From contig CAJQRK010000037.1 of assembly GCA_905612305.1 (NCBI GenBank), positions 1 through 46,097 of the forward strand: 46,097 nt of DNA, given 5' to 3'. The notes under the pieces were generated by a model. It was not told where the DNA came from. It worked only from the letters and a program-made list of their open reading frames with translations, and ran no database searches. Of this stretch, positions 17,841 to 25,037 are shown in pieces (position 1 is the first letter of the stretch; each line of letters starts with the position of its first letter). Both the position numbers and the translations under genes were made by a program. Source of the DNA: an uncultured Flavobacteriales bacterium (GTDB lineage: Bacteria; Bacteroidota; Bacteroidia; Flavobacteriales; BACL11).

Positions 17841-18707
17841 CTATCCTAAGGCTACATCTAAGCACATCATTACAATAAATCCGGCTATTAATCCCATTGT
17901 AGCAAGGTCAGTGTTTCCTCCTCTCTGACTTTCAGGTATAACTTCTTCCACCACAATAAATATCATAGCGCCTGCTGCAAAGGCTAAGGCGTAGGGTAGA
18001 ATTGGTAGAACTGTCATTACTATTGCAGCACCTATTACCGCAAATATAGGCTCAACAATAGCTGATAATTGCCCCCATTTCCATGATTTCCATTTACTTA
18101 CACCCATTCTTCTTAATGGCATAGAGACCGCAAATCCTTCTGGGAAATTTTGAATACCTATTCCGATAGCTAAAGCAATTGCACCACCTATTGTAAATAC
18201 TGAATGACCGTCCATCCCTAATAGTTCAGGGTTTGCAAGAGCTCCAAACGCAACACCAACAGCTAATCCTTCTGGTATATTATGTAAAGCAATTGCTAAT
18301 ACTAATAATACCGTTTTTCGCCAGTTAGTTTCTATGCCTTCAGCTTCTTCTCTTTTTGCAAATATGTGTAGGTGGGGAATAATTTTATCTAAAATAAATA
18401 AGAATGATGCTCCTAGAAAAAATCCAATAGCAGGTGGTAGCCATACTGGCATTGTACTTAATCCCATTTCATTTTGCATTTCAACATAAGCTATTGAAGG
18501 AGAAAGAAGAGACCAAAAACTTGCAGCAATCATTACTCCTCCGGTAAATCCAAGTGCAGTATCTAAAACCTTACGATTTGATGAGTTAAATAAAAATACT
18601 AATGCTGCGCCGATTGCAGTTAATCCCCAAGTAAAAAGCCCAGCATAAAGTGCTTGTAGGATAGGCGGTTGAATAATAAACCATTTGTATAATTCGTAAT
18701 TTTCCAT
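17841..18707 (-). CDS. ZIP family metal transporter
   Basis: The 288-residue protein has about eight hydrophobic segments and the ZIP metal-binding motifs in two central helices: LHNIPEGLAVG (about 150) and IGIQNFPEGFAVSMPLRR (about 185), plus FAAGAMIFIVVEEVIPES near the end. These are the M1/M2 binding sites of the ZupT/GufA branch. It imports a divalent cation into the cytoplasm; whether the main substrate is Zn, Mn or Fe cannot be read from sequence. It begins 2 bp after the DtxR/MntR-type regulator and is almost certainly co-transcribed with it, so its expression should follow the operator at 19404-19419. Confidence 0.9.
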   Translation of the reverse strand: MENYELYKWFIIQPPILQALYAGLFTWGLTAIGAALVFLFNSSNRKVLDTALGFTGGVMIAASFWSLLSPSIAYVEMQNEMGLSTMPVWLPPAIGFFLGASFLFILDKIIPHLHIFAKREEAEGIETNWRKTVLLVLAIALHNIPEGLAVGVAFGALANPELLGMDGHSVFTIGGAIALAIGIGIQNFPEGFAVSMPLRRMGVSKWKSWKWGQLSAIVEPIFAVIGAAIVMTVLPILPYALAFAAGAMIFIVVEEVIPESQRGGNTDLATMGLIAGFIVMMCLDVALG

Positions 18708-18709
18708 TC

Positions 18710-19366
18710 TTATTTTATTTTAATTAAAAGATGTTTAGCTACATCATTACTGATATGCTGATTTGTATTTTCTATATTTATGCTTAATGATTGGTCAAAA
18801 CTAATTTTCTCTAAAAGCTCTATTTTAGTGCCAATCCTTATGTTGAGTTGTGTCAGATAATCTAAAAATGATTTTTCATCAAGTGTAACTCCCATAACTC
18901 TTCCTTTTGTAGCAGTTTGTAATTCGTTTAAAGGGATTGCATTAGTGGTTGGTATTTCTCCGTCTTTTGTTGGGATTGGTTCTCCATGAGGATCAAATTT
19001 AGGAAACCCTAAAAAGGAATCTAATTTATCCACTAGTTCATCTGATTTTATATGTTCTAATTGCTCAGCAACATCATGCACTTCTCCCCAATTAAAGGCC
19101 AATTTATTTACTAAAAATGTTTCCCATAATCTATGTTTTCTTATGATTGAGGTAGCAAGATTCCCGCCTTTTTCGCTTAGTTCTACTCCTTTATATTTTT
19201 CATACTTAATCAGTTCTTTTTCTTGCAGTTTTCTCAGCATGTCAGATACAGATGCTGCAGAAGTGCTAATTTCATCAGCAATTGCATTAGTAGAAGCTTT
19301 TTCATTAGTATTTAAGCTAATTGCCCAAATAGCCTTTAAATAGTTTTCTTCAGCTAAAGTGATCAT
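18710..19366 (-). CDS. DtxR/MntR-family metal-dependent transcriptional regulator
   Basis: The N-terminal winged helix (about 1-65; TLAEENYLKAIW, IADEISTSAASVSDMLRKLQ) is followed by the dimerisation and metal-binding helices (AEQLEHIKSDELVDKLD and FPKFDPHGEPIP, with the conserved His/Glu ligands) and a small FeoA/SH3-like domain (about 155-218). The start was taken at 19366 (MITLAEEN), not at an in-frame ATG 8 codons earlier at 19390: the earlier codon overlaps the -7 element at 19388-19395, and family members begin at this position. The protein would repress when loaded with metal (Mn, Fe or Zn). It lies directly upstream of the ZIP transporter gene. Confidence 0.88.
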   Translation of the reverse strand: MITLAEENYLKAIWAISLNTNEKASTNAIADEISTSAASVSDMLRKLQEKELIKYEKYKGVELSEKGGNLATSIIRKHRLWETFLVNKLAFNWGEVHDVAEQLEHIKSDELVDKLDSFLGFPKFDPHGEPIPTKDGEIPTTNAIPLNELQTATKGRVMGVTLDEKSFLDYLTQLNIRIGTKIELLEKISFDQSLSINIENTNQHISNDVAKHLLIKIK

Positions 19367-19387: not shown

Positions 19388-19395
19388 CAAATATA
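19388..19395 (-). promoter_or_regulatory. -7 element of the metal regulator / ZIP transporter unit
   Basis: Minus-strand TATATTTG matches TAnnTTTG and sits 21 bp before the start codon at 19366. The inverted repeat at 19404-19419 lies just upstream, where the polymerase sigma factor would bind. Confidence 0.6.
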
Positions 19396-19403
19396 AATAA
19401 AAA

Positions 19404-19419
19404 TTTAGACGAGTCTAAA
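19404..19419. promoter_or_regulatory. Perfect inverted repeat TTTAGAC-GA-GTCTAAA, predicted operator of the metal regulator
   Basis: TTTAGAC (19404-19410) and GTCTAAA (19413-19419) are exact reverse complements separated by 2 bp. The size and TTTAG/CTAAA ends resemble DtxR/MntR-family operators. It is placed between the -7 element (19388-19395) and the expected -33 region, so a dimer bound here would block transcription. Autoregulation of the regulator and ZIP transporter is inferred from position and symmetry. Confidence 0.7.
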
Positions 19420-19813: not shown

Positions 19814-20113
19814 ATGAACTTTCGTCTTAAAAATTGGATGGAATTAGAGGGGTTGAAATCTTCACATCTTGCTGACAATATTGGGGTGAATCGTGCTACA
19901 ATTTCACACGTGCTTTCTGGTCGTAATAAGCCAAGTATTGATTTTCTGGAAAGGCTATTGCATGTCTATCCTCAGTTAAATGCCAACTGGCTAATAACAG
20001 GAATTGGCTATATGACCACTAAAAAAGATGCCAAAGAAGTGAAGTCCTCAAAGAAAATAGGCAAAGTAGTTGTATTTTATGATGACAATTCTTTTGATGA
20101 AGTAAATCCGTAA
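19814..20113 (+). CDS. XRE-family helix-turn-helix transcriptional regulator
   Basis: A short DNA-binding protein of 99 residues. The Cro/C1-type HTH is at about 12-65: SSHLADNIGVNRATISHVLSG is the helix-turn-helix, followed by NKPSIDFLERLLHVYPQLNANWLITG, which completes the five-helix fold. The remaining 35 residues are Lys- and Asp-rich with a short strand (KVVVFYDD) and no known domain. The target is unknown. It is separated from the preceding gene by a long leader with a clear promoter, and pyrD follows 39 bp downstream, so it may be co-transcribed with pyrD. It could be an ordinary housekeeping regulator, as there is no phage or toxin partner beside it. Confidence 0.85.
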   Translation: MNFRLKNWMELEGLKSSHLADNIGVNRATISHVLSGRNKPSIDFLERLLHVYPQLNANWLITGIGYMTTKKDAKEVKSSKKIGKVVVFYDDNSFDEVNP

Positions 20114-22954: not shown

Positions 22955-22962
22955 TATATTTG
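22955..22962 (+). promoter_or_regulatory. Putative -7 element of the riboswitch transcript
   Basis: TATATTTG, a full match to TAnnTTTG, ends 5 bp before the predicted start of the riboswitch fold. No TTG at the ideal upstream distance, so the -33 part is unclear. Confidence 0.55.
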
Positions 22963-22966
22963 TCCC

Positions 22967-23123
22967 AAGTTTAGTACACTATTTTAGTGTCAAAGGGAAT
23001 GAGGTGTAACTCCTCAACTTTACCAGAAGCTGTAAAGTCCGTATATTTTGAATACTGCACGCGCCACTGTTGCAAAATGGGAAGGCCTAATTCAAAAGGA
23101 TCAAGTCAGAAGACCTGCTAAAT
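22967..23123 (+). ncRNA. Cobalamin riboswitch
   Basis: The segment carries the ordered conserved blocks of the cobalamin aptamer: a P3-like stem (ACACTA/TAGTGT), AAAGGGAAT, GAGGTG...CTCCTC, AGCTGTAAAG, GCCACTG, TGGGAAGGCC and, at the end, the B12-box-like AAGTCAGAAGACCTGC. The closing stem P1 can form between AGTTTAG (22968-22974) and CTAAAT (23118-23123). It lies directly upstream of a btuB-type receptor. When adenosylcobalamin or another cobalamin binds, expression of the receptor should fall. The limits are approximate. Confidence 0.92.
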
Positions 23124-23135
23124 AAAACAAATCAA

Positions 23136-23156
23136 ATCGTTTCTGAATAAAACGAT
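23136..23156 (+). promoter_or_regulatory. Hairpin just before the btuB start codon, possible expression platform
   Basis: ATCGTTT (23136-23142) and AAACGAT (23150-23156) are exact reverse complements with a 7-nt loop. The hairpin lies between the riboswitch and the ATG at 23163 and ends 6 bases before it, so it would hide the initiation region. No U-tract follows, which argues for translational rather than transcriptional control. Confidence 0.55.
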
Positions 23157-23162
23157 AGAAAA

Positions 23163-25037
23163 ATGAAACACCTTTTAGCACACGTAATAATTCTAATTGC
23201 CTTTGTATATACTCTGCAAGGGCAAACCTCTATAGACACCATTAATCTTCCAGAAGTAAGGTTAGAGCAAAGTCGCTTGCGTACCCATTCAATTGCTACA
23301 CAAATGGAAATATTTACACCTGCTGATCTAGGAAATTTTCCATCCCAAAACCTAGCAGACTTCTTGTCCCTCAATTCTGCTTTATACTTTAGGCAATATG
23401 GAGCTTTGGCTACTCCATCTTTCAGAGGAACATCTAGCTCACACACCTTAGTGCTGTGGAATGGTATCCCACTCAATTCGGCAGCTAATGGGTTAATGGA
23501 TTTTTCTGTCCTACCTGTTAATATAGGGCATGAATTATCGGTAGTTCATGGTGGTGATGGTTCTGTATTTGGTTCTGGCGCTATAGGGGGGAGTGTGCAC
23601 TTTCATACCATTAGTAATTTTAAACCTAAAAAACAGATACAATTTACTTCAGAAATAGGCAGTTTTGGTCTTAGGAGCAATACCTTATCCTTGCAGCATA
23701 CTGAGGGTAAATTATCTATTAAGGCTTCTTTATTTTCTCTTAAGGATAATAATTCCTTTGAGTTTGTAAATACTACTCTAATAGGGCATCCTTCAGTTAT
23801 GAATGAATACGGAAAAATTGAAAGCAAACACCAGCAATTGGATTTGGCTTATCGGTACGATAATTACAATCAATTTGCCATTAACTTCTGGGCTGAAGAC
23901 AATGACAGGGAAGTACCTCAAAACATGACTATTCCTTCTTCAGATGCCAAGCAGTATGATGCAAGCAAGCGTTTGTTATTTTCATCCAGACATAGATTTG
24001 ATAACAGTAGTTTGCAGTTAAAACAAGCTTATTTGAAAGAAGATTTCCGCTATACTGAACCGCTATGGGATGTTGAAAGCTATTACCTAACTGAAAGTTA
24101 TATTACGGATGCAGACTTTAAATATTTTACAGGAAATTACCTATTTAATTTAGGAAGTGCTTATACCGACAAATCAGTTACCAATGCTAATTATTTGGCC
24201 GCAAAACAAGATGAAAAACAATTAGCCCTCTTTTCTGCTATTCAGTATAAGTCAGAATTTTTTGTAATAAATACAATATTAAGGAAAGAGTGGCAATCAG
24301 ATTTTGAAGTGCCTTTCATTCCTGCTTTGGGCTTTTCTGCTCAACTAAATAAGCATCTTAATTTCAGATTAAAATATAATAGAAACTTTCGTTCCCCTAG
24401 CTTTAACGATAGATTTTGGGCAGATCCATGGTCTAACGGTAATCCTGATTTGAAACCAGAAAATGCTTGGAATAAAGAGTTTGGTTTTGATATAAATACT
24501 CCTTATTTTACCTGCAGTGCTACCTCTTATACTTTGACTATATCGGATATGATTTTATGGCAAGAAATGGGCAATGGGAATTGGATGCCAGAGAACATAA
24601 AGCAAGTGTGGAGTAGAGGTATAGAGGCAAAATTGAAATTGAAAATAAAAAACTTGAGCATAGTTGGGAATTATGGGTTTACTAAGTCAACTAATGAATT
24701 AGCTACTGATAATTTGGATAACACAGTAGGGAAGCAATTGCGATATGTTCCGCTTCACAAAGGAAATCTGATGCTTGTTATTGCTAAAAATGATTTTCAA
24801 TTTAATATAAATCAGAGCTATACAGGACAAGTGATAGCTACTCATGGAACTCCGGAAAATGAAACTTTACCTGCTTTTTTATTGACAGATATTGGGCTTA
24901 GCTGGAAATCAACTCATTCTCCTTTTTCCTTTCAGGGGAAAGTAAAAAACCTAATGAATAAAAGTTATCAGACTTATCAGAATTACCCTAACGCAGGAAG
25001 AGGGTTGCAGTTAACAATAACTTATATTCTTAATTAA
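23163..25037 (+). CDS. btuB: TonB-dependent vitamin B12 receptor, BtuB-like
   Basis: An outer-membrane, energy-coupled receptor of 624 residues. After a signal peptide (1-21), the plug domain spans about 30-145, with the block RQYGALATPSFRGTSSSHT and HGGDGSVFGSGAIGGSVHF typical of plug domains. The beta-barrel follows, with aromatic strand ends, and finishes with LQLTITYILN. Size matches E. coli BtuB (about 600) rather than the larger SusC type. Substrate assignment as cobalamin rests mainly on the riboswitch upstream plus the BtuG-like lipoprotein downstream; the sequence alone would only say TonB-dependent receptor. Translation is probably controlled by the hairpin at 23136-23156. Confidence 0.88.
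   Translation: MKHLLAHVIILIAFVYTLQGQTSIDTINLPEVRLEQSRLRTHSIATQMEIFTPADLGNFPSQNLADFLSLNSALYFRQYGALATPSFRGTSSSHTLVLWNGIPLNSAANGLMDFSVLPVNIGHELSVVHGGDGSVFGSGAIGGSVHFHTISNFKPKKQIQFTSEIGSFGLRSNTLSLQHTEGKLSIKASLFSLKDNNSFEFVNTTLIGHPSVMNEYGKIESKHQQLDLAYRYDNYNQFAINFWAEDNDREVPQNMTIPSSDAKQYDASKRLLFSSRHRFDNSSLQLKQAYLKEDFRYTEPLWDVESYYLTESYITDADFKYFTGNYLFNLGSAYTDKSVTNANYLAAKQDEKQLALFSAIQYKSEFFVINTILRKEWQSDFEVPFIPALGFSAQLNKHLNFRLKYNRNFRSPSFNDRFWADPWSNGNPDLKPENAWNKEFGFDINTPYFTCSATSYTLTISDMILWQEMGNGNWMPENIKQVWSRGIEAKLKLKIKNLSIVGNYGFTKSTNELATDNLDNTVGKQLRYVPLHKGNLMLVIAKNDFQFNINQSYTGQVIATHGTPENETLPAFLLTDIGLSWKSTHSPFSFQGKVKNLMNKSYQTYQNYPNAGRGLQLTITYILN

Follow-up and report, generated by a model that had tools for sequence, protein, structure and literature searches.

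A predicted MntR-type autoregulatory operator upstream of a regulator–ZIP transporter gene pair in an uncultured Flavobacteriales bacterium, and its conservation among related regulators

The window analyzed here is a 46,097-nucleotide stretch of DNA from an uncultured Flavobacteriales bacterium. In the promoter of a gene pair encoding a DtxR/MntR-family regulator and a ZIP-family metal transporter, it carries a perfect palindrome. Is the palindrome the operator of the adjacent regulator, and if so, which metal does the regulator sense? We propose that it is, with high probability, the autoregulatory operator of this MntR-type regulator, through which the mntR-zip genes would be repressed when manganese is plentiful. 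From sequence comparisons, we infer binding by the regulator, co-transcription of the two genes, the sign of regulation, and the identity of the metal as manganese, not iron or zinc. The features concerned are as follows.

19404..19419, no strand: predicted MntR-type operator, TTTAGAC-GA-GTCTAAA; an exact site, kept 5′ of related regulators
19388..19395, minus strand: −7 promoter box TATATTTG; a full TAnnTTTG match, 8 bp from the operator
19416..19419, minus strand: possible −33 element TTTA, weak, within the operator and 20 bp from the −7 box; a tentative assignment
18710..19366, minus strand: DtxR/MntR-family regulator with an FeoA domain, 218 aa from the ATG (PF01325, PF02742, PF04023)
19343–19345, minus strand: regulator residue 8 (Asn), at the position of an Asp metal ligand in the solved relatives
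17841..18707, minus strand: ZIP-family metal transporter, 288 aa (PF02535; ORF table)

The two genes had been named in a preliminary description from their translations, and domain matches agree with both names. The regulator has an HTH domain (PF01325, 55.9 bits) and a metal-binding and dimerization domain (PF02742, 104.1 bits), both above cut-off, followed by the C-terminal FeoA/SH3-like domain of the long subgroup (PF04023, 41.6 bits; cut-off 23). The nearest NCBIfam model is the MntR equivalog NF047407, which scored 167.4 bits and did not pass its cut-off of 350, and the solved relatives of the protein include structures labelled SloR, ScaR, and MntR. The neighboring protein matches the ZIP family (PF02535) at 78.5 bits against a cut-off of 35.1. 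Its gene starts 2 bp past the regulator stop codon, and therefore the two genes very likely form a single operon.

The 16 bp at 19404–19419, TTTAGACGAGTCTAAA, match the inverted repeat without a mismatch, so that the perfect 7-2-7 structure with arms TTTAGAC and GTCTAAA, as first described, is borne out. On the minus strand, the order is operator, 8 bp (9 bp had been given), and TATATTTG (19395–19388), with 37 bp separating the operator from the regulator ATG at 19366. TAnnTTTG is the sigma-A −7 consensus in Flavobacterium psychrophilum, according to the available part of the source (PMC9723704). No clear copy of the −33 sequence TTTG was found at the operator promoter. The best −33 candidate is the operator’s own TTTA, so the repeat overlaps the −33 region and the spacer. 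That is, it lies in the promoter, as had been proposed, but not between the −7 and −33 elements. Ten simulated sequences average 7.1 perfect 7-2-7 palindromes, and the window has nine; by palindromy alone, the operator is ordinary. No other exact copy of the sequence occurs in the window or in the 1.33-Mb draft genome to which the window belongs. The case for an operator, as read from sequence, rests on conservation, not on palindromy.

Relatives were picked by similarity of the regulator protein: 80 plus 30 loci, which after removal of six duplicates gave 104 upstream regions, the window itself (L096) among them, each scanned over 200 bp. The relaxed consensus TTTAGRYnnRYCTAAA is found exactly in 57 of these regions and with one mismatch in another 27, i.e., in 84 of 104, a count to be read with the caveat that the consensus was derived from the loci later counted and that related genomes are non-independent. 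At the same threshold of one mismatch or fewer, neither the pattern read backwards nor a stretch inside the gene gave any match (0/104 each). Among regulators linked to a ZIP gene, 45 of 46 have the operator. The record titles of the site-bearing loci include Flavobacteriales, Saprospiraceae, Cytophagales, and Chitinophagaceae. The exact pattern of the preliminary description is present in 10 of the 104 regions.

The lack of a good site at one mismatch or fewer in 20 regions goes in part with the placement of neighboring genes. Where a co-directional gene ends less than 200 bp upstream of the regulator, the site is lacking in 11 of 18 cases and present in 7; where a divergent gene lies less than 200 bp away, it is lacking in 2 of 45. 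Absence concentrated at co-directional neighbors is expected if the operator marks operon starts. Thus, site absence largely goes with a regulator that is not first in its operon, which explains only part of the cases: six of the 20 site-less regions have a divergent neighbor, and these stay unexplained.

We suggest the following sequence of events for the window. With ample manganese in the cytoplasm, the regulator dimer would carry the metal and bind the palindrome. The bound dimer would cover the −33 and spacer part of the promoter and block the sigma factor, and mntR and the co-transcribed ZIP importer gene would be off. When manganese becomes scarce, the repressor would leave and the importer would be made. 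In 68 of the 84 regions with a good site, an exact −7 box lies within 60 bp, 40 of them at 22–28 bp and 23 at 3–10 bp; the window’s spacing belongs to the latter, minority class (23/68). Since the spacing varies, occlusion need not have the same geometry everywhere.

Because the relaxed consensus came from the loci in which it was counted, independent evidence has to come from the exact pattern, which in 196 genomes of the order gave 20 sites versus 6 for the backward control. Eleven of the sites lie before a regulator gene, five before Nramp, one before a TonB-receptor gene, and three inside unrelated ORFs; Pfam was applied to a single Nramp gene (L135), and the other four begin alike. With the relaxed pattern, 52 genomes of the family gave 50 sites versus 33 for the control. 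By a hand tally, 21 of the 50 are before a regulator, three before ZIP (with the regulator absent from the stretch examined), one before a TonB receptor, 21 inside other ORFs, and four before other genes.

Three further arrangements were seen among these sites. In Flavobacterium-like genomes, L135 has a Fur-family gene (1522–1911; PF01475, 28.8 bits) directly 5′ of the site and the Nramp gene, in the same direction, an arrangement that counts against the MntR reading. Two related genomes (L195, L196) have an operator-like site 16 bp 5′ of a peptidase-like gene, and another genome (L167, L191) has one 38 bp 5′ of an epimerase-like gene, both genes being named from sequence reading.

The repeat had been put forward as a motif with which to find the metal regulon. 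In relatives, this holds, in that 17 of the 20 exact sites precede regulator, Nramp, or TonB-receptor genes; in the draft genome that contains the window (1.33 Mb, 75% complete), it does not. There, the exact pattern with up to three mismatches gave 75 sites, fewer than the 137 of the control, and the relaxed pattern with one mismatch gave 8 versus 11. The 20 near-matches considered, comprising all of the two-mismatch and relaxed-fit sites and some with three mismatches, show no recognized metal gene, gene identities being judged here by reading the sequences without a family search. One near-match (L147) lies inside a TonB-receptor-like ORF. Around the genome’s second ZIP gene (C7), no site with fewer than three mismatches was found in the stretches examined. 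With no second site found at a recognized metal gene, the mntR-zip operon is all of the regulon that can be seen in this genome; an autoregulated single-operon regulon would equally give a lack of further sites.

Which metal does the regulator sense? The linked importers point to manganese. Among relatives, the neighbors of the regulator include ZIP, a ZnuA/ABC ATPase cluster, and Nramp; at loci that lack ZIP, the ZnuA/ABC ATPase cluster is found in at least 21 and the Nramp cluster in eight, the cluster names coming from Pfam on representatives. In the window’s genome, ZIP is the only such neighbor. From these linked genes, manganese is the best inference. Nramp matches were found in 7 of 52 family genomes, six of them above cut-off, and not in the window’s genome. 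Since Nramp is rare in the family, its members may depend mainly on ZIP at the inner membrane. An unusual Nramp gene was seen directly after the regulator in L075 (4645–6516), where Nramp is fused to a universal stress protein domain.

ZIP transporters are able to carry zinc or iron. The palindrome might thus be the same operator, with the regulator being a sensor of iron (or zinc) like DtxR/IdeR and ZIP importing iron or zinc; we consider this unlikely, though it is the most probable of the alternatives. The metal ligands, placed by motif spacing, are Asn8, Glu101, Glu104, and His105, compared with the Asp, Glu, Glu, and His of MntR manganese sensors. Of 105 aligned rows, in which the window’s protein is counted twice, 100 have Asn as residue 8; the five solved relatives shown all have Asp there, and this departure leaves room for a different metal. 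At Asn8 and Glu101, however, the corresponding DtxR ligands, again by motif spacing, are Met and Cys; the DtxR and MntR ligand residues used for comparison are those given in the available part of PMC4805248. The sole NCBIfam match of the ZIP protein, to the zinc transporter ZupT, also favors an iron or zinc sensor, but it is below cut-off, and relatives have Nramp and ZnuA-type ABC systems among their linked importers.

The iron sensor reading would also gain if this lineage were devoid of Fur, and no Fur-family match was found in the window’s draft genome. However, 49 of 52 family genomes have Fur-family matches, so the absence here is probably an assembly gap. For the same reason, we dropped the notion that the lineage has no metalloregulator besides MntR.

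An operator of the regulator, with manganese as the likely metal, must also be weighed against an operator that belongs to some other protein, e.g., the divergently encoded HTH protein at 19814–20113. A similar small HTH gene is likewise found across the site in five other loci (L161, L172, L173, L203, L204). In these five, the HTH start is 228–309 bp from the site, and in the window it is 394 bp; in ZIP-linked loci, the site is 33–56 bp from the regulator match. Moreover, the site is kept in loci with a TonB receptor gene or some other gene in the divergent position, and in loci with no HTH match. Ownership by the HTH protein is thus highly improbable and was rejected, the site persisting without the HTH gene and sitting nearer the regulator. 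Some loci with an HTH neighbor have the site directly before ZIP. Finally, a chance palindrome in AT-rich DNA, a view to which the nine repeats versus about seven expected and the unenriched near-matches of the draft genome would lend themselves, is contradicted by a sequence and place conserved in 84 of 104 upstream regions against 0 of 104 for the controls, and was rejected as having next to no probability.

The predicted operator appears to serve a second gene in many relatives, in which a TonB-dependent receptor gene diverges from the regulator gene and the site, located between the two, is common to both. The receptors were taken from loci chosen by the regulator alone. From 31 rows, L097, L101, and L110 were removed, being the same contigs as L017, L024, and L042; L098, the plug of which is uncovered, and L091, which has no divergent receptor, are outside the tally. 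By the aligned column, a plug cysteine pair (CxxC) is present in all 28 distinct divergent receptors with the plug covered: 10 CQTC, 2 CQNC, 2 CNVC, 3 CSVC, and 11 CGVC. Examples divergent from the regulator include those of L017, L053, L034, L038, and L113. The aligned column was used in place of a stricter regular expression demanding extra flanking residues, which matched 31 of 51 loci and missed 20; most of the latter have CNVC, CSVC, or CGVC, and the rest are without cover, divergent receptor, or regulator. In a small control, the regular expression found no such cysteine pair in seven receptor-like ORFs of the window’s own genome.

A back-translated CQ(N/T)C search of the family and order gave 32 places, an undercount, since the pattern allowed only some codons; two of the places were, by reading, not such receptors. 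Of the remaining 30, 17 adjoin the regulator; each of these has the operator with one mismatch or fewer, namely the shared intergenic site. The other 13 are away from the regulator, and three of these have the operator at that threshold, one of them at a contig end. The best match of the backward control at CQ(N/T)C receptors had two mismatches and occurred once.

The divergent gene is not always an intact receptor gene. In two genomes of the window’s genus (L130, L132), the receptor gene beside the site has an early in-frame stop, similarity to full-length receptors starting before it; the single exact site of the order-wide search that precedes a TonB-receptor gene is that of L132. In seven loci (L020, L023, L156, L176, L041, L049, L063), a small outer-membrane-like protein replaces the TonB receptor; the two tested, L176 and L049, both match PF13557.

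In the window’s own incomplete genome, no close copy of the receptor was found, the best-scoring match having 24% identity and a shorter one 37%, and the CQ(N/T)C pattern gave no match. The window does hold a TonB-receptor-like ORF (23163–25037), just 5′ of which is a Cobalamin riboswitch (22955–23136; RF00174, 86.1 bits). This ORF probably encodes a vitamin B12 receptor.

These observations permit a broader proposal, which we hold to have about an even chance of being correct: that TTTAGRYnnRYCTAAA is the common MntR box of much of Bacteroidota, recognized by an Asn8-type MntR and controlling inner-membrane importers (ZIP, Nramp, ABC) together with a manganese-importing outer-membrane CxxC TonB receptor. 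If this is true, the plug cysteine pair would be a sign of manganese receptors even in phyla far apart.

How does the window’s site compare with known systems? Operators of DtxR/MntR regulators are palindromes placed over the promoter of the regulator and importer genes, as at the window’s site. The predicted operator is therefore of a known kind, a DtxR/MntR-type autoregulatory operator with an ordinary mechanism, well supported by conservation. ScaR (3hrs), SloR (5cvi), and 5zr4, which is labelled metal-dependent transcriptional regulator, are of the same protein family and length as the window’s regulator. The window differs from them in having Asn at the first metal ligand position, a ZIP importer, and the operator TTTAGRYnnRYCTAAA. 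We found no report of this sequence as a Bacteroidota operator in the open-access literature, surveyed largely by listings.

The studied parallel that we found within the phylum is PgMntR of Porphyromonas gingivalis, an MntR-type regulator that also has an importer in its own operon. As described in the available part of PMC4805248, PgMntR binds the promoter region of an operon that contains its own gene and the FB2 manganese transporter gene; in tests with a 385-bp fragment, manganese tightened the binding, and the apo-protein bound too. The same part of the source describes two FeoA domains, Asp19 and Cys108 as ligands, and the FB2 transporter, features in which PgMntR is unlike the window’s regulator. 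Compared with a 385-bp fragment, the operator proposed here gives manganese control in Bacteroidota a DNA signature that can be tested.

In Stenotrophomonas, TonB receptors of the class to which this signature is linked have recently been proposed to serve for manganese. A 2026 study of Stenotrophomonas maltophilia describes, in the part available, a TonB receptor that is controlled by MntR and has CQNC in its plug, which, as suggested by modelling, may help in holding manganese (PMC13217887). According to the same text, sequences related to this receptor occur sparsely over diverse taxa, and locus and partner are found together in Lysobacterales, Sphingomonadales, and Opitutales. The S. maltophilia module belongs to another phylum and has MntH, MntP, and a thioredoxin-fold partner; a further difference is that no such receptor was found in the window’s own draft genome. 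In common with the window’s relatives, as far as that text goes, the S. maltophilia module has an MntR site at a TonB receptor with a plug cysteine pair. A manganese route across the outer membrane of these Bacteroidota thereby becomes directly testable.
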